This document shows positions 6,195-53,962 of a stretch of 64,000 nucleotides of DNA, one piece after another (position 1 is the stretch's first letter; every line of letters starts with the position of its first letter). The translations under genes were made by a program, and so were the position numbers. Under the pieces are notes generated by a model. The model did not search any database. It saw only the letters and a list, made by a program, of their open reading frames with translations, and was not told where the DNA came from. Source of the stretch: a virus; the IMG/VR virus record IMGVR_UViG_3300032607_000303, positions 16,846 to 80,845 of that record, one strand, 5' to 3'.

Positions 6195-7220
6195 TTAAAA
6201 TGAAATTTGTAGTTTTGTTAGGAGTGCTTTTACGTTTGTTGGTTGTTCGTCTTTCTTCCGCAACATCTTAGCAAGATCAAAGCATTCTTGCAAGACATAT
6301 AACCAATCAATTTTAATCTTATCGCCTCTCCAACCTACTACTACTTTAGGCTCAGGGTAGAGTTTCTTATACCCTTTTACAAGTGCTTCAAAGGCTTGCT
6401 TGTCATTAGTACATTCAGATAGTAGATTGAATGCTGCAATATCACCATGTTTCACATCAGAGAAGCAAGCCGCAGAAAAATTGTCGCTCGCATCTTGTCC
6501 CATAACCTGCCAGTAAAGGTGCAACCTACCCCACCCTCTAACCTTACCCTTATCATCACGAGCAATCTTACCGAATCCAACTCGTAACTCTGGCTTGCTA
6601 CATTGCCCCACATGATACTGCCACGAGTCTACTTGGCACAAGTCTTTGTCAGCGAAAGTGATAATTCCCTTATCAGATTCCCTACCTGTTGCCTTCCATT
6701 TTGTGTAAGCATTTAGGCCAGCTTCAGAAACCGCATCGTCACTCTCAGCCCCCTCAATAAATATACAGTTGTGTTCATCAACCATATATTGCTTTAAGGC
6801 TGACAAGTGAATAGGGCGCATACCTACTAACTCCCGTTGCCCTTTGTATTTCCATAGAGTGGACATTTGTACACGATCTAGCTCACCACGACCTACAAAG
6901 CCTACGTAGCTGCTTGCGCCAGTTTCTTCAAGAAGTCCTTGTAAGCGTGTGTCTACGGACTTCTTAGCTCTCTCTAGTGGCAAGGCTTCTTGGTGTTCTG
7001 TAAAGGTGAACTCGTCAGGCTTCAGGGATGCAAAGTTTAGTTCGTTGTATTCTTGAACAAACCCACCCTCTCTCTTTGGAGCCTTCCCCCAAAGTTCGGT
7101 CTTATTCTTCAACTTTATAGGTTCAGGAATGCCAGGGTGAGTTGCTAGAATGTATGTCTCCTGAAAAACACAAGCCACTGTGTAGCAGATAAAGTCGGCA
7201 TCAAGAATTAGGTAGCTCAT
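6195..7220 (-). CDS. 5'-3' exonuclease of the FEN/PIN family
   Basis: This is a nuclease expected to remove RNA primers and flaps or degrade DNA 5'-3' during replication, like T7 gp6 or T5 D15. The acidic metal ligands are visible in order: LILDADFICY at the N-terminus, EGAESDDAVSEAG, ITFADKDLCQV and GQDASDNF (the GDxxDN-type helix-hairpin region). At 341 residues it has the usual phage length. I chose ATG at 7220 because it overlaps the upstream stop as ATGA; the longer frame reads into the HNH gene and its extra 26 residues look artificial. Confidence 0.88.
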   Translation of the reverse strand: MSYLILDADFICYTVACVFQETYILATHPGIPEPIKLKNKTELWGKAPKREGGFVQEYNELNFASLKPDEFTFTEHQEALPLERAKKSVDTRLQGLLEETGASSYVGFVGRGELDRVQMSTLWKYKGQRELVGMRPIHLSALKQYMVDEHNCIFIEGAESDDAVSEAGLNAYTKWKATGRESDKGIITFADKDLCQVDSWQYHVGQCSKPELRVGFGKIARDDKGKVRGWGRLHLYWQVMGQDASDNFSAACFSDVKHGDIAAFNLLSECTNDKQAFEALVKGYKKLYPEPKVVVGWRGDKIKIDWLYVLQECFDLAKMLRKKDEQPTNVKALLTKLQISF

Positions 7221-7816
7221 AGCGCAGCACCATGCCCTTCCGAATAACCAGCACCCTCTGTATTTCTCTGCTCTAGCATATTTACACGGCACTGACAAGC
7301 CATCTTGAAAGCAACTTCATTACCTAATCTGTCTATGGAAAAGTATTTATTAACCCTCTTACCTTCGGAGTTGGCAAAGTATGCACCCCAATACTCCCGA
7401 ACAAGTCCGCTCTTATCGGTATTTACTTTCTTAGATACACCTACAACACCTGATGAGTTTGCTACTGACATAGACCTATTACGATTATTAACCGAGTTAG
7501 TTGTAACTCTAAGGTTTGATATTAGGTTATTAGTTCTATCCCTGTCTACATGATCTATTGGTTTTATACCCAAACCACCGTTGTGAAGTTCGTAGATTAT
7601 CCTGTGGCACAGGTAGGATACAAAGTTAAGGCTTACAACATAATACCCAATACCCTTATGAAAACCTCCAGCTTCGTCGCCGGCAAGCGCCTTGATAATC
7701 TTACCATTACTACCACTTCGCCAATCTTTAACTCGCCTCAAACCTGTCTTAGAAGTTGAATCGTAGTAAAAGTGCTCTGACCAATCTATACCTGAACTAT
7801 CTTTTGCTGTCGTCAT
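7217..7816 (-). CDS. HNH homing endonuclease with AP2 domain (paralogue 2)
   Basis: This has the same architecture as paralogue 1. An N-terminal module (HFYYDSTSKTGLRRV) leads to an HNH core with DHVDRDRTNNLISNLRV and NSVNNRNRS, then an AP2-like part from NSSGVVGVSK to YWGAYFAN. The C-terminal motif is EGAGYSEGHG. It sits between the SSB gene and the exonuclease gene, and its stop overlaps the exonuclease start. It lies directly downstream of a hairpin terminator (7827-7861), which should limit its transcription. Confidence 0.88.
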   Translation of the reverse strand: MTTAKDSSGIDWSEHFYYDSTSKTGLRRVKDWRSGSNGKIIKALAGDEAGGFHKGIGYYVVSLNFVSYLCHRIIYELHNGGLGIKPIDHVDRDRTNNLISNLRVTTNSVNNRNRSMSVANSSGVVGVSKKVNTDKSGLVREYWGAYFANSEGKRVNKYFSIDRLGNEVAFKMACQCRVNMLEQRNTEGAGYSEGHGAAL

Positions 7817-15137: not shown

Positions 15138-15731
15138 TTACAAACCGTGTCTGTCTGTGTAGCCAGCCCCTTGACTGTTTAGTTGAGCAATCATTTTTAA
15201 TCTGTACTCACAAGCTAGACGAAAGGCTTCTTCCTCTCCGTGAACATGGACAGAAAATATTTTATAGCATTTACCTAAGGATACACTATCTGCCCAAGAT
15301 GCCTTGTAGTATCTATATTCAACATTAGCTGGATTTTTGTACTTAATGGATGTAACGCCCACAAATCCAGATGTGTTGTTGTTTTGCTTCTTCTTGTTTC
15401 TTGAGTTATACTTTTCCTCGACTGCCCTTAAGTTACTAACTGAGTTATTTGTGGGGTCTCCATCAATATGATCTATAACATACTTTTCTGGAACATAACC
15501 ATGAAACATCTCCCATATAATTCTGTGCACTCTGTACATACCTTGTTTATAGTGAATCTGAGAATAGCCACCAGTACCGTTTAGCGATCCTGCAACATCA
15601 CCAACACTGATATGTTTTCTTCCGTTACTTCTTCCGCTAAAGCAATCAATCGCCCATCGTAAACAGGTCTGGCTAGACTCGTCATAGATGAAAAGTTTGT
15701 GGTAGTCTTCAATAGTTATTTTAGGTGCCAT
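15138..15731 (-). CDS. HNH homing endonuclease with AP2 domain (paralogue 3)
   Basis: It matches paralogues 1 and 2 along its length: N-terminal module KLFIYDESSQTCLRWA, HNH core DHIDGDPTNNSVSNLRAV and NSRNKKKQ, an AP2-like part from NNTSGFVGVTS to YKASW, and the C-terminal QGAGYTDRHG. It lies downstream of the primase-helicase gene, behind a hairpin (15748-15767). AAGGAAGAA precedes its ATG. Confidence 0.88.
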   Translation of the reverse strand: MAPKITIEDYHKLFIYDESSQTCLRWAIDCFSGRSNGRKHISVGDVAGSLNGTGGYSQIHYKQGMYRVHRIIWEMFHGYVPEKYVIDHIDGDPTNNSVSNLRAVEEKYNSRNKKKQNNNTSGFVGVTSIKYKNPANVEYRYYKASWADSVSLGKCYKIFSVHVHGEEEAFRLACEYRLKMIAQLNSQGAGYTDRHGL

Positions 15732-23264: not shown

Positions 23265-23519
23265 ATGATTGAACGTGATATTGTAGAGTGGAACAAAATG
23301 GTAGTACAGTCTCAGAAGAATATGGAGGGAGATGCTCCAGCACATGAGGATATTCTCGTAATTCGTGTAGATGTTTGGATATCTTCACTACTCTCTGAGA
23401 TTCGTATGCTTAAATATGCAGAGGATATTCGATTGTCTCGCACAATGACTGTACAAGAGGCTGAGAAATTGGCTATTGAGCAAATTGCTAAAGAAGAATT
23501 GACAAAAGGAAATGTATGA
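23265..23519 (+). CDS. Hypothetical protein, 84 aa
   Basis: It is helical and acidic (IVEWNKMVVQSQKNMEG). Its ATG lies one base after the previous stop and its end overlaps the antirepressor start. Not recognised. Confidence 0.65.
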   Translation: MIERDIVEWNKMVVQSQKNMEGDAPAHEDILVIRVDVWISSLLSEIRMLKYAEDIRLSRTMTVQEAEKLAIEQIAKEELTKGNV

Positions 23520-24295
23520 ACGCTATTATCAATGTAACGAAGAATGTTGTTGGAAATAAAACTATTGAAACTGTTAATGCTCGTGCATTGCATGAGTTTC
23601 TTGGAGTAGGTAGGGATTTCTCAGAGTGGATTAAGTCTCGTATAGAGAAGTATGACTTCACAGAGGGTTCTGACTACGTAACTGCTGAAATTTTGAGCAC
23701 ACCAGATTTGGGGAGCGCAAAAGCAAGGCCACAAGTGAAGAAAGAGTACCATATTAGTATCTCCATGGCTAAAGAAATGTCCATGGTAGAAAACAATGTC
23801 CAAGGGAAAGAGGCGCGTAAGTATTTTATTGCATGTGAGACTCGGCTCAACGATACACCTAAAGGTATTGTTCTAGACAACCCTATGCAACTCCGTGCTG
23901 CTCTGCTGGCATACACAGAAACTGTAATTGCTCTTGAGGCAAGCGTACTGTCACTAACCAATGATGTTGTTAAGAAAGACGAAGTGATTGAAAAGCAGCT
24001 TCCAGCAGTGGAATTTGTACGTATGTTCGTAGAGCGAGGACTAAATACTTGCTTGAGTGATGCTTTCAAAGGGCTTGGGCTGAAGCCTACTATCTTCATC
24101 AAGCACCTAACACAAGACGGTGTGCTGTTTAAGCGTCAAGGTGGCACTGTAAATCACGCTAAGCAGGCACACATCAACGCTGGACACTTTGTAGAGCGGT
24201 TCAGTGAATATTCTACACAGACACTAATTACACCGAAAGGTGTTCTGTGGCTCACTAAGAACTACAAAGCGTACATGGAGGAACACTCTAAATAA
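23516..24295 (+). CDS. AntA/KilAC antirepressor-like protein
   Basis: Such proteins inactivate phage repressors or bind DNA to switch gene expression. The N-terminal AntA/AntB-type part is visible as VNARALHEFLGVGRDFSEW, KYDFTEGSDY and the YHISISMAKEMSMVENN block. A coiled region (residues about 130-160) leads to the KilAC domain, with AVEFVRMFVERGLN, FIKHLTQDGVLF and a late LITPKGVLWLTK. The C-terminal half is paralogous to that of the 31471 gene. A terminator follows directly. I found no integrase or CI-like repressor in the window, so its target is unclear. Confidence 0.85.
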   Translation: MNAIINVTKNVVGNKTIETVNARALHEFLGVGRDFSEWIKSRIEKYDFTEGSDYVTAEILSTPDLGSAKARPQVKKEYHISISMAKEMSMVENNVQGKEARKYFIACETRLNDTPKGIVLDNPMQLRAALLAYTETVIALEASVLSLTNDVVKKDEVIEKQLPAVEFVRMFVERGLNTCLSDAFKGLGLKPTIFIKHLTQDGVLFKRQGGTVNHAKQAHINAGHFVERFSEYSTQTLITPKGVLWLTKNYKAYMEEHSK

Positions 24296-27183: not shown

Positions 27184-27366
27184 ATGCAATTCACCCTAAA
27201 CACTGACTTAGCTGTATGGCTTGACTCAGTTCGTGGGCAACATTCACGACAAGCATTCATAACAAGAGTCTTACGGCAACAAATGGTAGTACAGCAGTAC
27301 ACTTCTCACACTAAGGAAACGCATGAAGAAAATATCACCTATGGGGTTGCTCAACCTCTTTCATAA
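27184..27366 (+). CDS. Small ribbon-helix-helix-like DNA-binding protein, 60 aa
   Basis: The strand MQFTLNTDLAVWLD, then helix and turn (SRQAFITRVLRQQM) fit the ribbon-helix-helix fold used by CopG/Arc-type repressors. GGAAGG precedes the ATG. The next gene begins inside it in another frame, so they are translationally linked. It may control its own promoter and the adjoining replication-type gene. Confidence 0.65.
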   Translation: MQFTLNTDLAVWLDSVRGQHSRQAFITRVLRQQMVVQQYTSHTKETHEENITYGVAQPLS

Positions 27367-27952
27367 GTCGGCAGCAGCCGATGTCAATCTGACAGTACAT
27401 GAACATCGCCTCATGTCTGTCATCATAACGTACATCAATGGGGAAGACCTCTCCAAAGGTTACAAAGCTTGGCCTAGTACGGATACTCTTATCCGCTTCA
27501 CAGGGCTTGGCACAACTACAATCGAAAATGGCAGGAAGAAACTTGTAAAGGATGGTTGGCTAACAATCATTTCTGGCAAGGGTAAGGGAAGTAGTAACCA
27601 GTATTTTGTGAATGGTGCAAAGATTGTTGAGGCAGCAGCTAAATCTGGTGTATCATACAACGATCAGGAGGCAGTTAAAGACGCTTCCATACCTGCACAG
27701 AAGGAGCCTCATAAGCGTAACATGGAGCCAGCAAGGGCTGCTATAGGTAAGCCTACTGTCAAGGTTGTTGAGCCAACAGTAGCATGGTTTGAAGATGATC
27801 CTGTGAAGACTTTTGAGAAGCCTACTAAAGTGTCTATCAATCCTGATGGCTCAAATCCATTCCACAAGAACGGCTTGCGTTGTCACTCCTACGAAGACCA
27901 TGCAAATGCTACAAGAAATAAAGTAGAAACATCTTGTGATGATCCGTTTTGA
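27323..27952 (+). CDS. Winged-helix protein resembling phage/plasmid replication initiators, 209 aa
   Basis: The N-terminal 100 residues contain a winged-helix pattern: KAWPSTDTLIRFTGLGTTTI (recognition region), then LVKDGWLTIISGKGKGSSNQY as the wing. This layout is common in phage replisome-organiser or replication-initiator N-termini. The C-terminal half is low-complexity and charged, ending SCDDPF. It overlaps the RHH gene by 44 bases. It could equally be a regulator, as I see no initiator-specific C-terminal domain. Confidence 0.65.
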   Translation: MKKISPMGLLNLFHKSAAADVNLTVHEHRLMSVIITYINGEDLSKGYKAWPSTDTLIRFTGLGTTTIENGRKKLVKDGWLTIISGKGKGSSNQYFVNGAKIVEAAAKSGVSYNDQEAVKDASIPAQKEPHKRNMEPARAAIGKPTVKVVEPTVAWFEDDPVKTFEKPTKVSINPDGSNPFHKNGLRCHSYEDHANATRNKVETSCDDPF

Positions 27953-31470: not shown

Positions 31471-32220
31471 ATGACACCATCAATTAAAACATTTGTTCTG
31501 TCCACTGTTGACGTAGTTAAGACGATGACAAGTATGGAAATTGTCTCGTACATCAATGAGTGCCGTGAAGATGGAAAGCCACTAATCTCCCACCCAGATT
31601 TTCTGAAGAAAGTAGATAAGGTGCTTAAAAAAGATGCAGGAAATTTTTCCGACATCTATTTAGATGCTTATGGTCGAGAGCAGAGGTGCTTTAATTTCCC
31701 TAAGCGTGAGGCAAACCTAATGGTTATGAGCGAATCTTACGAAGTTCAAGCTAGAGTATATGACCGAATGGCAGAGCTTGAAAATAATGTACAGAAGCCT
31801 GTTTCAGTTATCCCTGACTTCGACAACCCTATTGCTGCTGCTAGAGCTTGGATTGTAGAGCGTGAAGCTGTGCTAGAGTTGGCAGCTTCTGTAGCAGAAC
31901 AAGCCCTACGTATTGCCCATGATGCCCCAAAGGTTGAGTATGTGGATAAATTTATAGAGGTTGGCTTTGATATGAACCTCCGTGATGCTTGGAAAAGTTT
32001 ACATGTAAAACCTAACATCTTTAGCAAGCACTTAGTGGACGAGGGCGTACTGTACGAAAAGAATTCAACAAAACACGCTTACTCGTCACATATTAATGCA
32101 GGCTATTTTGTAGAGCGTCAGACAAACTTCGGGACACAAGTGTATGTAACACCTAAAGGTAAAACTTACATTGCTAAGAGGTTTTCTGATTGGCTTAAAA
32201 ATAATACCACAAAGAAATAG
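31471..32220 (+). CDS. Rha-like/KilAC antirepressor-type regulator, 249 aa
   Basis: The N-terminal 95 residues resemble the Rha (phage regulatory) domain: SMEIVSYINECREDGKPLIS, then FPKREANLMVMSESYEVQA followed by VYDRMAELE. A short linker leads to a KilAC domain: KVEYVDKFIEVGFDMNLRD, NIFSKHLVDEGVLYE and YVTPKGKTYIAKRF. The C-terminal half matches that of the 23516 protein, while the N-terminal domains differ, as in shuffled antirepressors. It has its own promoter and is flanked by two near-identical terminators, like a movable 'moron' unit. Confidence 0.83.
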   Translation: MTPSIKTFVLSTVDVVKTMTSMEIVSYINECREDGKPLISHPDFLKKVDKVLKKDAGNFSDIYLDAYGREQRCFNFPKREANLMVMSESYEVQARVYDRMAELENNVQKPVSVIPDFDNPIAAARAWIVEREAVLELAASVAEQALRIAHDAPKVEYVDKFIEVGFDMNLRDAWKSLHVKPNIFSKHLVDEGVLYEKNSTKHAYSSHINAGYFVERQTNFGTQVYVTPKGKTYIAKRFSDWLKNNTTKK

Positions 32221-37193: not shown

Positions 37194-37841
37194 ATGGCAA
37201 CAATATTTGGGTATGGTCGAGTGAGCCGCACAGGTCAATCTTCAGAGAATCAGCGTCAAGCTATTGAGAAACACCTCGGTAAACCTGTCGATGTCTGGTA
37301 TGAAGACCATGCTGTAAGCGGCACTGTAAAGACCAGTGTGAGGCCATTATTCTCTAGGATGGTGAAAGAGGCTGTAGCTGGTGATACGCTTGTCTTCAAT
37401 CGTGTTGATCGTATATCACGTAGAGCGTCAGATACATTGACAACTGTAGAGGGACTGTTGGAGAGAGGCGTAGAAGTTTATATAATACAGATTGGCAAAG
37501 ACCCTCTTAGTTCTGCTAAGGGTAAGATGATGTTAGGAATATTTGCCATCTTTGCTGAGGACGAGAGAATGGCATTGGTGGAGCGTACAAAGGATGGGCT
37601 TGCCAGAGTTAAAAAGAATGGCGCAATACTTGGCCCTAAGCTGTCTATCAATCCTGAGACATTAAGAGCTTTGTGTATTGGCAGAGCAGATAAGATTACA
37701 TTAGATGTTCTTAGTAACATGTATGGCATAGACAGAAATACAATACTAAGGAATGTAAAGAAGTGGGGAGGTAGCTTAGAAGAATACGAAGCAGAATGGA
37801 ATAAGCGGGATAAGCAATACAAGGCTAAGGAACAAGCGTAA
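37194..37841 (+). CDS. Serine recombinase (resolvase/invertase family)
   Basis: It would cut and rejoin DNA at short specific sites, to resolve dimers or invert segments. The catalytic domain begins IFGYGRVSRTGQSSENQ, with the nucleophile serine in RVS, and continues LVFNRVDRISRRASD, KGKMMLGIFAIFAEDER and ERTKDGLARVKKNG. The C-terminal 50 residues form a helix-turn-helix (TLDVLSNMYGIDRNTILRNV). At 215 residues it is of the small resolvase/invertase size, not a large integrase. No matching inverted sites were found by eye; the upstream noncoding region is the likely place. Confidence 0.87.
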   Translation: MATIFGYGRVSRTGQSSENQRQAIEKHLGKPVDVWYEDHAVSGTVKTSVRPLFSRMVKEAVAGDTLVFNRVDRISRRASDTLTTVEGLLERGVEVYIIQIGKDPLSSAKGKMMLGIFAIFAEDERMALVERTKDGLARVKKNGAILGPKLSINPETLRALCIGRADKITLDVLSNMYGIDRNTILRNVKKWGGSLEEYEAEWNKRDKQYKAKEQA

Positions 37842-39867: not shown

Positions 39868-40665
39868 TTAGTTGTTATTGTAGTACATTTTAACAAGAGC
39901 ACGAGTTAGACCGCTTCTAATTACATCATCAGGGGTGAATCTAACAACACCAATATTACTGTTAATCTCTTCCAAGTCTTCATCAAGCAAATATCGTGGT
40001 TGCTCTTGTTTCATACGGTCAAGCAAGTCGAGAGTTTCCTCAATACCGCTAAGGCCACGCAAGTCGTGCTGTTTCTGATCCCCTGTGAAAATAATCTGAG
40101 CACCTTGACCCATACGTGTCAGCACCATTTCAAATTCATCCTTAGTGAAGTTTTGTGATTCCTCACTAATGCAGATGCAGCCCTCTAGTGACATGCCACG
40201 CATATATTCAGCAGGAAGCATGACAACAATCTCTTTCTCCAAACAATACTTTAGATAACCACTACCCATAAACTTAGCAAGATGCGCGAGAGTTTGTGCA
40301 AAGAAAGGAGTCATCTTTTCAGAGATTGTTCCGGGAAGCAGACCAATGCTTTTACCAACACTGACAGCAGGACGGACAAGATATACTTTCTCAATCTTCT
40401 TAGCCTTCAGTTGTGTAGCAGCATGATAGGCAGCAATCATACTCTTACCAACACCTGCACTTCCTGCTAGAAAGATTACACTGCGACCCTCTTTAAGCAT
40501 AGACAGGGCAAGTTTCTGATTATTATTCTTAGCCTCAAATCTTGGAGTTGTTGCTTGCTGTACCTCTACCTCATGTGCCACCTCTAAAAATTTGGCTTTA
40601 GTCTGAGGACGATCTTCACCGTCTTTACCATTGCGGCGAGTTACATGTGCTTTCTGACGAGTCAT
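39868..40665 (-). CDS. phoH: PhoH-like ATPase
   Basis: P-loop ATPase of the PhoH family, common in phages of aquatic and other bacteria. Walker A GSAGVGKS is at residues 68-75, AYLVRPAVSVGKSIGLLPG-type substrate block follows (KVYLVRPAVSVGKSIG), then the Walker B-like CICISEESQN and TGDQKQHDL sensor region. Family members are linked to RNA metabolism and stress, but their phage role is unclear. The N-terminal 35 residues are basic and probably disordered. Confidence 0.88.
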   Translation of the reverse strand: MTRQKAHVTRRNGKDGEDRPQTKAKFLEVAHEVEVQQATTPRFEAKNNNQKLALSMLKEGRSVIFLAGSAGVGKSMIAAYHAATQLKAKKIEKVYLVRPAVSVGKSIGLLPGTISEKMTPFFAQTLAHLAKFMGSGYLKYCLEKEIVVMLPAEYMRGMSLEGCICISEESQNFTKDEFEMVLTRMGQGAQIIFTGDQKQHDLRGLSGIEETLDLLDRMKQEQPRYLLDEDLEEINSNIGVVRFTPDDVIRSGLTRALVKMYYNNN

Positions 40666-41937: not shown

Positions 41938-41996
41938 AAGAAGCCTAACAACACTCTCAAGGCTTTGTAGGCTCATGGAATATTGTTAGGCTTCTT
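41938..41996. repeat. 14-pair inverted repeat in a divergent intergenic region
   Basis: AAGAAGCCTAACAA pairs perfectly with TTGTTAGGCTTCTT around a 31-base loop. The flanking genes are divergent, so it does not terminate either one. It could be a regulator site or insulate the two promoters. Confidence 0.6.
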
Positions 41997-42113
41997 AGTG
42001 TCTATTGTTCAAGACCTGCGTAGTGTAGCACATTTGATGTGGTTGTCAAGGGCTTGCATAATCTGGAAGTATGTGTTACAGTGTCAAACAAGTTACCTAG
42101 TAGGGAACCCTTC

Positions 42114-42173
42114 TATAGACGATTAAGTTTCTCATTTTAGCCAAAAGTGGCATTTTGGGACAAACTTTGTCCC
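42114..42173 (+). promoter_or_regulatory. Regulatory repeat copy A: TATAGA element plus 17-base palindrome
   Basis: TATAGAcGATTaAGTTT (42114 on) is followed, 43 bases after its first base, by the palindrome GGGACAAACTTTGTCCC (42157-42173). The palindrome ends 16 bases before the ATG of the 42190 gene. Copy B has the same order and spacing. Confidence 0.7.
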
Positions 42174-42189
42174 ATTCACAGGAGATAGT

Positions 42190-42309
42190 ATGGTTTTAGA
42201 GTATGAAGACGTAGTAGTATCTAAGTGGTTAGAGTCTCTTGACAAGGAAATTCTACAAGGTTGGGAGGACTACTATATAGATGACAACGCTGAGTGGTAT
42301 TACGATTAG
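42190..42309 (+). CDS. Acidic microprotein, 39 aa
   Basis: Begins MVLEYEDVVVSKWLESLDKE and ends in WYYD. CACAGGAGATAGT gives a proper ribosome site, and the operator palindrome stands right before it. The strong control signals argue that it is a real, regulated product; its function is unknown. Confidence 0.58.
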   Translation: MVLEYEDVVVSKWLESLDKEILQGWEDYYIDDNAEWYYD

Positions 42310-42330
42310 TCACTTAGGAGTAGACCCGTT

Positions 42331-42390
42331 TATAGAGGATTGAGTTTTTAAATATTGCCAGTATGCCCTAAACGGGACAAACTTTGTCCC
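42331..42390 (+). promoter_or_regulatory. Regulatory repeat copy B: TATAGA element plus identical palindrome
   Basis: TATAGAgGATTgAGTTT (42331 on) precedes the same palindrome GGGACAAACTTTGTCCC (42374-42390), again offset by 43 bases. The palindrome ends 15 bases before the ATG of the 42406 gene. Confidence 0.7.
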
Positions 42391-42405
42391 AAACACAAGG
42401 AATAC

Positions 42406-43467
42406 ATGATTACAATAACACAAATCATCAAACAAATGGAAGACTCTGAAGTAGACATATCAGACCTTACACCTATGCAGCTACAATCTTATAGGAACCA
42501 ACTCAAGCGTTTAGAAGGTATGTGCGGAGCTAAGATGGCTGAGACTTCTACGAAAGATCACTCTTACAATGATGAAGATGTATGTAAGTACATTGATACT
42601 ATCTTGGATAGAGGTTTTAACCTTGAGACAACAGCACTAGGCGACTTCCCCAACTTCATAGATGCACAGAGGCTCCGTAGATGGACAACAATGATTGCCG
42701 AAAGAGTTGCAGCCTCTGAGTTTAGTGCAAAGAAGTTCAGGGTTCACAGCCTCCGATTGTTGCGAAGTAATATAGCAGCATCCAAGAATCTGCACGACTT
42801 ACGGCAGGCTGTAAACTTGATGATTAGCCCTCTGGAGTTATGGAGAGATCACCTTACTACCTGTGACAAGTATAGTGAGAAGAACCAGAAGGCTGAGACA
42901 ACAGAGCAAACTAAGTATGTAGATGCAATACTGAAACGACTTGAGAAATCCGAGAGTTTGTGCAAAGAAAGTAAGCGGGTACTAGACGAGATTATGGGGT
43001 ACTACGATGAGGGTATGGGCGACATATCCCTTCTGCGCAATTGTGAGAACGCTAAGAAATCACAAGGGTTGAGTGATGAACAGGCAGCTAGTTTATTTGG
43101 CATCAATCGTAAAGCACTCCAACGACTACGTAAAAACATCGTGCTGGCACCTGTCGAGGATGTCTCTTACAAAGAACCTAGCAAGGCATATTGGGATGAC
43201 ATGGCAGCAGTGCAGAAAAAGACTAAGGAGGCTTTCTACAAGAAGAAAGGGATGGCTACTACATTTGCAGTAGGTCAAGTTTGGTTGTTGCAAGGACACA
43301 ACGTAGGGACACTTATGGAAGTAAATGAGTTGGATAACCCTTCGACAGTTGTGTACAAGGATTCCTTCGGAGTGCTCGTAAAGTGTAACGAAACTGGTGA
43401 AAGTTTGGACGGTATTTCTCCTTCATTGTTGGCTATCTTTCCAAAGAACCTTAACACAAAGTACTGA
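42406..43467 (+). CDS. Hypothetical protein with possible helix-turn-helix, 353 aa
   Basis: ATG at 42406 follows ACAAGGAATAC; the frame is open further back but would run through the operator. Mostly helical. SDEQAASLFGINRKALQRLR (about residue 240) looks like a helix-turn-helix, and the last 80 residues look like a beta-rich domain (FAVGQVWLLQGHNVGTLMEV). Placed between early and late genes and behind a twin operator, it may regulate late transcription or its own operon. The family is not recognised. Confidence 0.7.
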   Translation: MITITQIIKQMEDSEVDISDLTPMQLQSYRNQLKRLEGMCGAKMAETSTKDHSYNDEDVCKYIDTILDRGFNLETTALGDFPNFIDAQRLRRWTTMIAERVAASEFSAKKFRVHSLRLLRSNIAASKNLHDLRQAVNLMISPLELWRDHLTTCDKYSEKNQKAETTEQTKYVDAILKRLEKSESLCKESKRVLDEIMGYYDEGMGDISLLRNCENAKKSQGLSDEQAASLFGINRKALQRLRKNIVLAPVEDVSYKEPSKAYWDDMAAVQKKTKEAFYKKKGMATTFAVGQVWLLQGHNVGTLMEVNELDNPSTVVYKDSFGVLVKCNETGESLDGISPSLLAIFPKNLNTKY

Positions 43468-43493: not shown

Positions 43494-43522
43494 TTGACAA
43501 AAGTGTTAGTTCAGTGTATTAT
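43494..43522 (+). promoter_or_regulatory. Sigma-70-like promoter for terminase and tRNA genes
   Basis: TTGACA (43494-43499), 17 bases, TATTAT (43517-43522), 32 bases before the putative small terminase gene. Confidence 0.78.
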
Positions 43523-43554: not shown

Positions 43555-43881
43555 TTGGGGGCGCAGCTACTAATTCCAACAGAAATAAGTTTTAATCGTA
43601 GACAAGCACATCCGTTACAAAAGACTAGCAAGGCTCTCAGTAAGGAAGTTGAAGCCATCATTGAGAAGTTACTGAAGCTTTGTAACAGCCAAGATGAAAA
43701 GACATCTGAGCGTGCATGTAGTAAGTTGCTAGACTATCACATTGAGATGATTTCAGCAATTGAGAAAGACGAGATCACAAGAAAGCTACTCAGCATCAAG
43801 CATGGTAATGGTAGCAGAGATTTGGAAGAGTCTGACAGTATGCCTATGATTGATTTCAATAGCATACAGAATATCGAGTAA
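43555..43881 (+). CDS. Putative terminase small subunit, 108 aa
   Basis: TTG start behind GGTAGGAGAACAC. The helical centre (LSKEVEAIIEKLLKLCNSQD, then ERACSKLLDYHIEMISAIEK) resembles the helical N-terminal region of phage small terminases, which recognise the packaging site. It is the first gene of the packaging cluster; tRNAs and two homing genes separate it from the large subunit. The assignment leans on position. Confidence 0.55.
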   Translation: MGAQLLIPTEISFNRRQAHPLQKTSKALSKEVEAIIEKLLKLCNSQDEKTSERACSKLLDYHIEMISAIEKDEITRKLLSIKHGNGSRDLEESDSMPMIDFNSIQNIE

Positions 43882-44097: not shown

Positions 44098-44172
44098 GCC
44101 TTTATAGTTCAGTGATAGAATACGCCCTTTGTACGGGTGAGACGACAGTTTGATTCTAGTCTAGAGGCACCA
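44098..44172 (+). tRNA. tRNA-Thr (anticodon UGU), with a bulged T-stem
   Basis: Acceptor GCCTTTA/TAGAGGC (one G-T), D-stem GTTC/GAAT, anticodon stem CGCCC/GGGTG with loop TTTGTAC, encoded ACCA. The T-stem GACAG pairs with CTAGTC only if the A is bulged. It could be a working but odd tRNA or one starting to decay. Confidence 0.78.
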
Positions 44173-44255
44173 CCAATGTAAGCGAATCGGGTTGCAACCC
44201 TTGGGACACTGTGTTGTCTCTAGCTTACACCTATATTAATCCGCACAGGGATAAA

Positions 44256-45011
44256 ATGAAAATAGCAACAAAAGAAAGCGTAATCGCATCTATACTTAGG
44301 TTTGTAACAGAAAATAGTAGGTACCCAACTAAGACAGATTGTAGGGATACTGACTGGTTATACAGTGCGCAAACAAATCGGCGTGTAGTAGGTTCTGTGC
44401 AAGAGATGAATATACTCTCTGATTTTCTTCTTAGCAACCCACTACCAGATAACCCTAAAAGATTTTGCAAGCAATGTGGCAAGGAAATAGACAATAAAGC
44501 AAGGGTATTTTGTAGTAGGTCGTGCTCTGCGAAGTTCAATAATAATACAGAGAAAAAGATAAAGTCAACTCAGAAGATTGAAGTAATTGATAAAGTCCGT
44601 GTTGTAAAAGAAGTTGTTGACCTCGGAAACTGCGTACATTGCAGTAATAAATTGACAGCTAGGAATACGGTATTTTGTTCTACTGCTTGTGCGTCAGATC
44701 ACAGATTAGCACATAGTATTCAAAATTGGTTAAGCAGTGGTAAAGTCCATAATGGAAACCAAGCTATCCGCAGCTATTTAAAACTCTTAGTGGGGGATAG
44801 CTGCTCTGTTTGTGGTATCTTAGAACATAACGGTAAACCTATAACCTTTGAAGTTGACCACATCAGTGGCGACAGTACGGACGATAGATATGAAAATGTC
44901 TGTCTTATTTGTCCAAATTGCCACTCTCAAACAGACACCTACAAAGGTAGAAACAGAGGTAACGGAAGGCACTCAAGGGCGCAGCGTTATCGTGAAGGAA
45001 AGAGTTATTAA
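44256..45011 (+). CDS. HNH homing endonuclease with two zinc-finger modules, 251 aa
   Basis: Two similar zinc modules come first: FCKQCGKEI...FCSRSCSAKFNN and CVHCSNKL...FCSTACASDHR. An HNH core follows: SCSVCGILEHNG, FEVDHISGDSTDDRYENV and CPNCHSQTDTYKGRNRG. The basic end (NGRHSRAQRYREGKSY) suits DNA binding. ATG at 44256 follows CAGGGATAAA. It sits among tRNAs between the terminase genes, a usual homing niche. Its N-terminus (SVIASILRFVTENSRYPT) may bind DNA. Confidence 0.85.
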   Translation: MKIATKESVIASILRFVTENSRYPTKTDCRDTDWLYSAQTNRRVVGSVQEMNILSDFLLSNPLPDNPKRFCKQCGKEIDNKARVFCSRSCSAKFNNNTEKKIKSTQKIEVIDKVRVVKEVVDLGNCVHCSNKLTARNTVFCSTACASDHRLAHSIQNWLSSGKVHNGNQAIRSYLKLLVGDSCSVCGILEHNGKPITFEVDHISGDSTDDRYENVCLICPNCHSQTDTYKGRNRGNGRHSRAQRYREGKSY

Positions 45012-45556: not shown

Positions 45557-46255
45557 ATGACAGAAGTAAAGGTAGGAATGAAATTCACCAAGTTAACCGT
45601 AGTTGCTCCAGCAGGTAAGAGTAAATGGTTATGTTCATGTGACTGCGGAAACGAGAAAGTACTCTGTTCATCAATGCTGACATCTAACCATAATAAAAGT
45701 TGTGGTTGCTCTGTAGATAGACATGGTATGCGTTACCATCGCGCTTACAAGAGTTGGCTCCACATGAAACAGCGTTGCACTAATCCAGAAAACCTAGATT
45801 ACCCTAATTACGGTGGTCGTGGTATTACAGTACATGAAGATTTTGCTAAATCGTTTCCAGTATGGCTTGCAGCAATTGGTGAGCGACCAGAAGGCCGTTA
45901 CAGCATCGGACGTATTGACAATAATCTTGGTTATACTTACGGAAATATTCGATGGGAAGATGATGAACAACAATCTCGTAACCATTGCAAATCCGTAACA
46001 AATAAGACTGGGATTGTTGGAGTTGTCTATCGAGAGCGAAACATAAATGGAGGAATTTACTGCATTTGGGTAGCTCAATGGGCCAACGAAACTAATAAAA
46101 AGAAATCAAAAGACTTTAGTTGTAATAAGTATGGTTACGATGTAGCCAAGCAACTTGCTATTGATTATCGAAATAAAATGATGGTAGAGCTAAACATCCG
46201 AGGATTTGATTACGCAGAATCTCACGGTAGTGTAAAGGAGATTTTGAATGGCTAA
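45557..46255 (+). CDS. HNH-like homing endonuclease with AP2 domain next to terL, 232 aa
   Basis: The N-terminal 55 residues hold a zinc-like cluster (WLCSCDCGNEK, KSCGCSVDRHG). The core then matches a common phage endonuclease: SWLHMKQRCTNPENLDYPNY, GGRGITVHEDF, GRYSIGRIDNNLGYTYGNIR. An AP2-like part (KTGIVGVVYRE, CIWVAQW) ends near FDYAESHGS, which resembles the tails of the three HNH-AP2 paralogues. Its end overlaps the terL start by 8 bases, so it travels directly beside the packaging motor gene. Confidence 0.83.
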   Translation: MTEVKVGMKFTKLTVVAPAGKSKWLCSCDCGNEKVLCSSMLTSNHNKSCGCSVDRHGMRYHRAYKSWLHMKQRCTNPENLDYPNYGGRGITVHEDFAKSFPVWLAAIGERPEGRYSIGRIDNNLGYTYGNIRWEDDEQQSRNHCKSVTNKTGIVGVVYRERNINGGIYCIWVAQWANETNKKKSKDFSCNKYGYDVAKQLAIDYRNKMMVELNIRGFDYAESHGSVKEILNG

Positions 46256-47766: not shown

Positions 47767-48570
47767 ATGTCTGTAGTGTATTGGATTCATTTGCCAGAGC
47801 ATGTAGATATGTTCACTCAAGGGTATGTAGGTGTTTGTTGTAAGAGTGCACAACACAGATTTCAACAACATTGCAACGCAGCTAGAGCTAATTCACAGAA
47901 CATTGTTCACAGAGCTATTAGAAAATATGGAGATTCTATATTAATTGATACTTTGATAGAGTCTTCTAATGAGTATTGCTATAAAGTAGAAAATAAACTT
48001 CGACCTAACATAAATGTCGGATGGAATATGGCAATTGGTGGAAAGGTTCCCCATGGGTATCCTCACACAGATGAAAATAAGGAAGCACAGAGACAAAGAA
48101 GGATTGGGAAACAGGCTTCTGAAGATACTAGAAAACTACTTTCAGAACAGAGCACCGGGGAGAAAAACAACTTCTTCGGTAAAGAGCACTCCCAAGAAAC
48201 TAAAGAAAAAATCTCAAATGCACGAAAGAGTTTTCCCCAAGAGACTAAGGATCGTTTAGCTTTGGCAAATGGTATGAGGGGTAAAAAGCACACTCCAGAA
48301 GCTCGTGATAAAGTAATAAAAACACTAAATAGAGATGGCTGTAAAGGTTGGCTTCCTTGGAAACACCCAAGAGCTAACAAGGAAATGTGGAAGATGGCTG
48401 ACCAAGTGTACGATTTCCTATCTAGTTTTCCATGCAGTACACACTATAAAATTGCAAAAGCTTTACCAATAACAAATAAAACCGCACTAACAATCAAAGA
48501 TAAAATTGAGGCTGGCTGGAATCCTATAGAAGATTCTGAGTGGCTTGATTTCCAAATGACTAAGGGATAA
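47767..48570 (+). CDS. GIY-YIG-type homing endonuclease with NUMOD3 repeats
   Basis: The N-terminus VVYWIHLPEH...QGYVGVCCKSAQHRFQQH is a GIY-YIG variant with spaced VYWI and GYVGV strands and the following RFxxH. Two NUMOD3-like DNA-binding repeats follow: NNFFGKEHSQETKEKIS and RGKKHTPEARDKVIK. The C-terminus is basic and helical. It sits between terL and the portal gene with its own promoter and AAAGGAGAG ribosome site. Confidence 0.82.
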   Translation: MSVVYWIHLPEHVDMFTQGYVGVCCKSAQHRFQQHCNAARANSQNIVHRAIRKYGDSILIDTLIESSNEYCYKVENKLRPNINVGWNMAIGGKVPHGYPHTDENKEAQRQRRIGKQASEDTRKLLSEQSTGEKNNFFGKEHSQETKEKISNARKSFPQETKDRLALANGMRGKKHTPEARDKVIKTLNRDGCKGWLPWKHPRANKEMWKMADQVYDFLSSFPCSTHYKIAKALPITNKTALTIKDKIEAGWNPIEDSEWLDFQMTKG

Positions 48571-53077: not shown

Positions 53078-53962
53078 ATGAAAGTTTGTTATGCGTGTAA
53101 AAATATCTTACCCGAGGAAGATTTTCTAAAGGGTAGTAAAACAGCAATATGCCTTACATGTAGCAGAAAAAAGTTAAAGAAAATAAAAGACGAAAAGATA
53201 AGCGGATCATATGTAAACCCTAAAAGTGTGCAAGCAAGATCAGAAAAGTTTAAATTGGACTGCACAAACATTCACTCTAGTGTATATACCTATGAAAAAG
53301 TCGATTACAAAGGTCACAACACTAAAGTTGAAATATTTTGCACTAAGCATCAAGGATATTTCTGGCAATCTCCTTGCAGCCACAAGAGTGGTAATGGGTG
53401 CTTGGTCTGCTACAACTCTAACCTAAAAGTTAATGGACTTAAAAGAAGAGTTACTACAGAGGAACTAAAGATTAGGGCTACAGTTGTACACAAGGATAAA
53501 TTCACATTTGACAATGTTGAATGCAACGGGATGCTTAAGCATGTTCAAGTAACTTGTAAAATACACGGAGACTTTCCTACAGCACCGCATAACTTACTAG
53601 CTGGGTGGGGATGCCCTAAGTGTAAAGTTAGTGGTTACTCTACTGAAAAACCCGGGTCTTTATATCTATTAAATAATGGCAGCATTACAAAAATAGGTAT
53701 TACTAATAGGGAAGTTCATACAAGGGTTTCAGAAATAAACAAGACAGTTTCTAAAAGTTTTGGTATTCTCTATGAATATAGAAACAAAGATGGCGCTGTA
53801 GCTAAATCAATTGAAAGTGTGTTAAAGGTATTTCTGTCTAGCACATATAAGTCACCCTCAGATAAATTTGATGGTTATACAGAGTGTTTTTATGATGTTG
53901 ATACCCAAGCCATACTAAAAATAATAAAAAATTTAGTAACAATTACAGAGGAAATTCAGTGA
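53078..53962 (+). CDS. Zinc-finger homing endonuclease with C-terminal GIY-YIG-like domain, 294 aa
   Basis: A CYACKNIL...AICLTCSRK zinc ribbon begins the protein. Two tandem DUF723-like modules follow: FCTKHQGYFWQSPCSHKSGN with CLVCYN, and VTCKIHGDFPTAPHNLLAG with CPKCK. The C-terminal domain GSLYLLNNGSITKIGITNRE, then RVSEINKT and AKSIESVL resembles the T5orf172/MUG113 branch of GIY-YIG nucleases. It separates the capsid gene from the head-tail connectors and has its own promoter. Confidence 0.8.
   Translation: MKVCYACKNILPEEDFLKGSKTAICLTCSRKKLKKIKDEKISGSYVNPKSVQARSEKFKLDCTNIHSSVYTYEKVDYKGHNTKVEIFCTKHQGYFWQSPCSHKSGNGCLVCYNSNLKVNGLKRRVTTEELKIRATVVHKDKFTFDNVECNGMLKHVQVTCKIHGDFPTAPHNLLAGWGCPKCKVSGYSTEKPGSLYLLNNGSITKIGITNREVHTRVSEINKTVSKSFGILYEYRNKDGAVAKSIESVLKVFLSSTYKSPSDKFDGYTECFYDVDTQAILKIIKNLVTITEEIQ

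Follow-up and report, generated by a model that had tools for sequence, protein, structure and literature searches.

A duplicated, putative promoter-leader cassette with an identical 17-base palindrome, a putative operator, before two accessory genes of a tailed phage

Between the leftward early genes and the late operon of a tailed phage, two accessory genes are each preceded by one copy of a duplicated cassette, whose elements keep a fixed spacing while conservation between the copies is patchy. Our best explanation, which we put forward tentatively, is that each copy is a promoter-leader unit and that the two genes are under shared control, the palindrome being a putative DNA operator bound by a dimeric protein. 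The window analysed is a 64,000-nucleotide stretch of an 80,845-bp record, which is apparently a complete genome, with a 133-bp direct terminal repeat. Limnohabitans phage DC31 and Curvibacter phage P26059A are among its nearest isolates in the collection, and the large terminase has a distant likeness to those of PAK_P1-type phages.

The palindrome, GGGACAAACTTTGTCCC, has 8-bp arms around a central C and was located by sequence search as two exact copies 217 bp apart, at 42157-42173 and 42374-42390 (assigned to no strand), the very positions given in a first-pass annotation of the sequence. The search of the rest of the genome which that annotation proposed gave no third copy in the whole 80.8-kb record, and with up to 3 mismatches allowed chance would yield 0.06 matches in the 64,000-nt window; the terminal repeat aside, the genome repeats no other palindrome family. 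From the first base of TATAGA, at 42114 and at 42331, it is 43 bases to the palindrome in both modules, and 16 and 15 bases separate the palindromes from the start codons at 42190 and 42406, respectively, so the 43-base distance and the 15-16-base gap reported in the first pass both hold. By itself the TATAGA motif (up to 3 mismatches) is no more frequent than expected by chance, degenerate half-sites of the palindrome elsewhere show no pattern at promoters, and Rfam and tRNA scans return nothing at either module.

Aligned without gaps at an offset of 217, modules 1 and 2 are identical at 66 of 98 positions (67%; binomial P about 3e-17), against an expected identity of 26% and about 30% in the flanks. 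The similarity begins 24 bp 5′ of TATAGA with an upstream box that the first pass had missed (AGTNACNTAGNAGNNNACCC in module 1, 42090-42113, plus strand; 42307-42330 in module 2, plus strand, conserved against module 1 in the alignment), and it continues through the ribosome site. This box is 62% identical between the modules (15/24, P=2e-4); the TATAGA-GATT-AGTTT element that follows it, a possible -10 (42114-42130 and, by alignment with module 1, 42331-42347; plus strand), reaches 88% (15/17); the spacer (42131-42156 in module 1, plus strand) falls to 38% (10/26), near and not above background (P=0.12); the palindrome is 100% identical (17/17), its centre included; and 42174-42187, towards the ribosome site, shows 64%. 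The ribosome-binding site regions themselves lie on the plus strand at 42174-42189 for gene 1 (AGGAG in sequence) and 42391-42405 for gene 2 (AAGGA). Identity in the palindrome differs from that elsewhere in the module (Fisher P=0.001) and from that in the spacer (P=2e-5), as does the TATAGA element from the spacer (P=0.0016), all with segment boundaries set after inspecting the alignment and from one comparison of two copies. The earlier description of twin cis-regulatory modules, with a spacing conserved across a non-conserved spacer, is borne out by this patchy alignment, which fits a real duplicated regulatory cassette. The palindrome has kept all 17 bases whereas about 40% of the remaining sequence has diverged, which points to sequence-specific recognition.

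The first-pass annotation saw no convincing -35 box, and we agree: over the 150 bp 5′ of each gene (42190 and 42406), nothing matches the sigma-70 consensus at 9/12 or better. In TATAGA the last -10 position is without its usual T, and the hexamer could be a chance part of the duplicated leader. At the expected -35 position lies a conserved box, AGTNACNTAGNAG, compatible with an activator-dependent promoter, and the missing sigma-70 -35 fits a promoter that is regulated. T4 middle promoters consist of a MotA box and a -10; the arrangement here is like theirs in that a conserved, non-canonical box replaces the -35 and is followed by a -10-like hexamer, but the box sequence is another one and no MotA-like protein was identified. 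The earlier alternative of a phage-specific promoter is not supported in the form of one for a single-subunit RNA polymerase: no ORF fits such an enzyme (about 800 aa), those of approximately 700 aa or more encoding the DNA polymerase, the tape measure and a protein of 968 aa that is tail-like. A Pfam search for the single-subunit polymerase family was uninformative, its control being silent. A T7-like promoter in the modules was rejected because there is no polymerase-like ORF.

Accessory gene 1 (42190-42309, plus strand) is a 39-aa acidic ORF with a net charge of about -10 and no family match. Accessory gene 2 (42406-43467, plus strand) encodes a 353-aa protein in which the first pass had noticed a possible helix-turn-helix (HTH); a weak candidate for it lies at about residues 206-244, the Xre-like Pfam hit (E=0.007) falling below the cut-off. 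Mean pLDDT of the AlphaFold model is 40.8 and most of the fold is of low confidence; the sole residues above 70 (71-76) fall inside a predicted three-helix stretch, 206-244. Neither the phage collection nor IMG/VR, 14 related records or the PDB yielded a detectable relative of the protein, and a PDB fold search was set aside, the model being too poor for a meaningful result. Equivalence with the boundary protein of the relative L007 was rejected, as the sequences are unrelated. A 21-bp exact direct repeat links 42951-42971, within the 42406 gene, and 40287-40307, in the PhoH gene region.

The left side of the modules is occupied by small early genes, PhoH and a protease-like gene; on the right side the 39-aa ORF and the 353-aa gene are followed by a gene of 108 aa (at 43555), tRNAs, and then terminase, portal and capsid, in accordance with the early-to-late boundary position first proposed. 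The 108-aa gene (43555-43881, plus strand) is the first conserved late gene, present in relatives, and the conserved late operon has its own sigma-70 promoter at 43494-43522 (plus strand; TTGACA-17-TATTAT, 11/12 consensus matches). In every relative read (five) the 43555 ortholog is closely preceded by a sigma-70-like promoter that agrees with the consensus at 10 to 12 of its 12 positions. This promoter and the accessory nature of the locus had been overlooked. The content of the slot between the late promoter and the leftward early genes differs among relatives: L007 and L146 hold a pair of genes of 64 aa and approximately 180 aa, and L056, L057 and L147 are without genes like that pair. Judged by this gene order, the modules occupy a variable accessory slot between divergent early promoters and a conserved late operon.

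The palindrome was absent from the 14 related records searched, a result that the first-pass annotation had counted among those speaking against its idea; none of the 14 encodes the 42406 protein either, and because of this the absence does not refute the idea. IMG/VR pattern scans combining TATAGA with the palindrome or the upstream box found no module in other phages; nhmmer searches of the phage's own genome and three related genomes (80 kb of each), and of stretches of isolate relatives, gave nothing significant beyond the two copies; and relatives showed no twin palindromes of different sequence. Closer relatives, whose DNA polymerase or capsid is at about 80% identity or more, are represented by short contigs only (L039, L044). 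A role for the palindrome as a widespread bacterial operator was rejected, with 72 scattered matches in 257 billion bases against a chance estimate of about 60, as were four IMG/VR matches in unrelated contexts. Among the sequences searched, the cassette is private to its source phage.

Several other features of this genome were recorded. In the divergent boundary region, a perfect 14-bp inverted repeat with a strong predicted fold (AAGAAGCCTAACAA at 41938-41951, TTGTTAGGCTTCTT at 41983-41996) is possibly a two-way terminator or a processing site. At 44098-44169, between tRNA-Leu and tRNA-Ser, Rfam finds a tRNA that ARAGORN does not. On the plus strand, 23516-24295, 31471-32220, 27323-27952 and 37194-37841 encode two Ant-type antirepressors, a replication-initiator-like protein and a protein that by its sequence is serine-recombinase-like, a set one would not expect, as in other respects the phage looks lytic. 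Adjoining window position 1, L058:15498-16844 is a ribonucleotide-reductase-like ORF with an apparent intein insertion. Many ORFs that are homing-endonuclease-like, again by sequence, lie at 2349-2909, 7217-7816, 15138-15731, 44211-45011, 45557-46255, 47767-48570 and 53078-53962, and occur in related loci also.

In the explanation that we prefer, each copy of the cassette would consist of the upstream box, the -10-like TATAGA and, in the leader, the 17-bp two-fold-symmetric site, and the promoter in each module would be weak or activator-dependent. A dimeric, sequence-specific protein would bind the palindrome as a DNA operator and, sitting some 30-47 bases past the presumed start, could block both transcripts or modulate them. 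The leading candidate for this binder is the 42406 product, and as its own gene is among the two targets an autoregulatory circuit would result; it is possible that the protein autoregulates via the palindrome. Autoregulated phage operators of the lambda type are about 17 bp long and are bound by HTH dimers. The site described here is like them in being 17 bp, two-fold symmetric and repeated near genes, one of them encoding a possible HTH protein, and any such binding is putative; it is unlike them in that the binder is only a candidate with an HTH below cut-off, and in that the site lies 3′ of the presumed start.

Identity that peaks sharply at TATAGA and again at the palindrome, and drops to near background in the spacer between them, argues for a DNA operator; the position of the palindrome, 3′ of the presumed start where it does not overlap the promoter, argues against one, as does the want of a module copy in relatives, which limits comparative support to the two copies. 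Alternatively the palindrome may act in the mRNA, where a hairpin of 7 bp closed around an ACU loop, near the ribosome site, would be a translational operator for a phage protein or a 5′ stabiliser of both transcripts; we rank this reading close behind the DNA operator. Such a hairpin is predicted with high probability in both leaders (about -10 kcal/mol), equally far from the ribosome site in the two copies; copy 1 folds so that the Shine-Dalgarno (SD) sequence is sequestered as well (mean unpaired 0.24). There are precedents for both roles: the T4 gene 43 translational operator is a hairpin whose recognition depends on loop sequence (PMC3014915), and bla mRNA owes stability to a hairpin at its 5′ end (PMC3997798). 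The T4 operator is likewise a hairpin 5′ of the ribosome site, but the element here is a perfect DNA palindrome with a 3-nt loop and precedes two unrelated genes. The SD sequestration is not conserved, however, the homologous pairing having zero probability in copy 2, and a conserved SD-sequestering helix was rejected since it occurs in copy 1 only; the z-scores of the leader folds are modest (-2.0 and -0.8). A generic hairpin would, moreover, tolerate compensatory changes, yet the copies have none and are identical at all 17 bases. The innermost A/T of the arms are symmetric though, with one base between them, they are unable to pair in an RNA hairpin, which mildly favours duplex DNA. Taken together, the identical bases, the lack of compensatory changes and the innermost-pair symmetry give a modest tilt to a dimer-bound DNA operator, and so the DNA site is slightly favoured over the RNA hairpin.

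The modules also resemble the promoter early stem-loop (PeSL) cassettes of T4-type phages and a TATA-box plus inverted-repeat motif of the haloarchaeal virus HGTV-1, as described in papers citing the original accounts (PMC4503421, PMC3950731), in placing a repeated promoter-like element and an inverted repeat before small, variable ORFs. On that model they would be mobile units of promoter and stem-loop between small ORFs, serving as homologous patches for the shuffling of accessory genes, and in keeping with it a tiny ORF is bounded on either side by a cassette, and the slot holds different genes in different relatives. The other testable features that define PeSL cassettes are missing: a host sigma-70-type early promoter does not occur at 9/12 or better within 150 bp 5′ of either gene, neither palindrome has a terminator-like site or a T run after its stem, and neither the 14 related records nor the IMG/VR pattern scans show any sharing with relatives, which thus hold no copies for recombination. 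With two copies only, at a single place, we consider this reading unlikely. We find it very unlikely that the modules are a simple tandem duplication of the leader with little function, in which the pattern reflects chance and post hoc choice of blocks. The statistics do come from a single comparison of two copies, with block boundaries picked once the alignment was seen; but a neutral duplication should diverge evenly, whereas the palindrome is identical at 17/17 positions and the spacer at 10/26 (P=2e-5), and a perfect palindrome with 8-bp arms would be unlikely to stay intact in both copies without selection.

The preferred explanation, a dimer-bound operator in a duplicated promoter-leader, also has a more far-reaching form, which we think improbable, in which the 17-bp site is a new operator, the promoters are activator-dependent with a new upstream box, and the unclassified 353-aa protein with its weak HTH binds the site and so governs both its own gene and that of the 39-aa acidic protein when the phage switches from early to late. 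The cassette is probably a regulatory switch that is ordinary and private to this phage, and of a generally familiar kind; because such devices are familiar the general lesson is modest. If the palindrome is indeed an operator for the product of the neighbouring gene, the locus would be a compact, testable case of joint control of accessory genes at the early/late boundary, in which such control arises by the copying of a promoter-leader unit, and it would give a first function to the 42406 product, a protein without detectable relatives.
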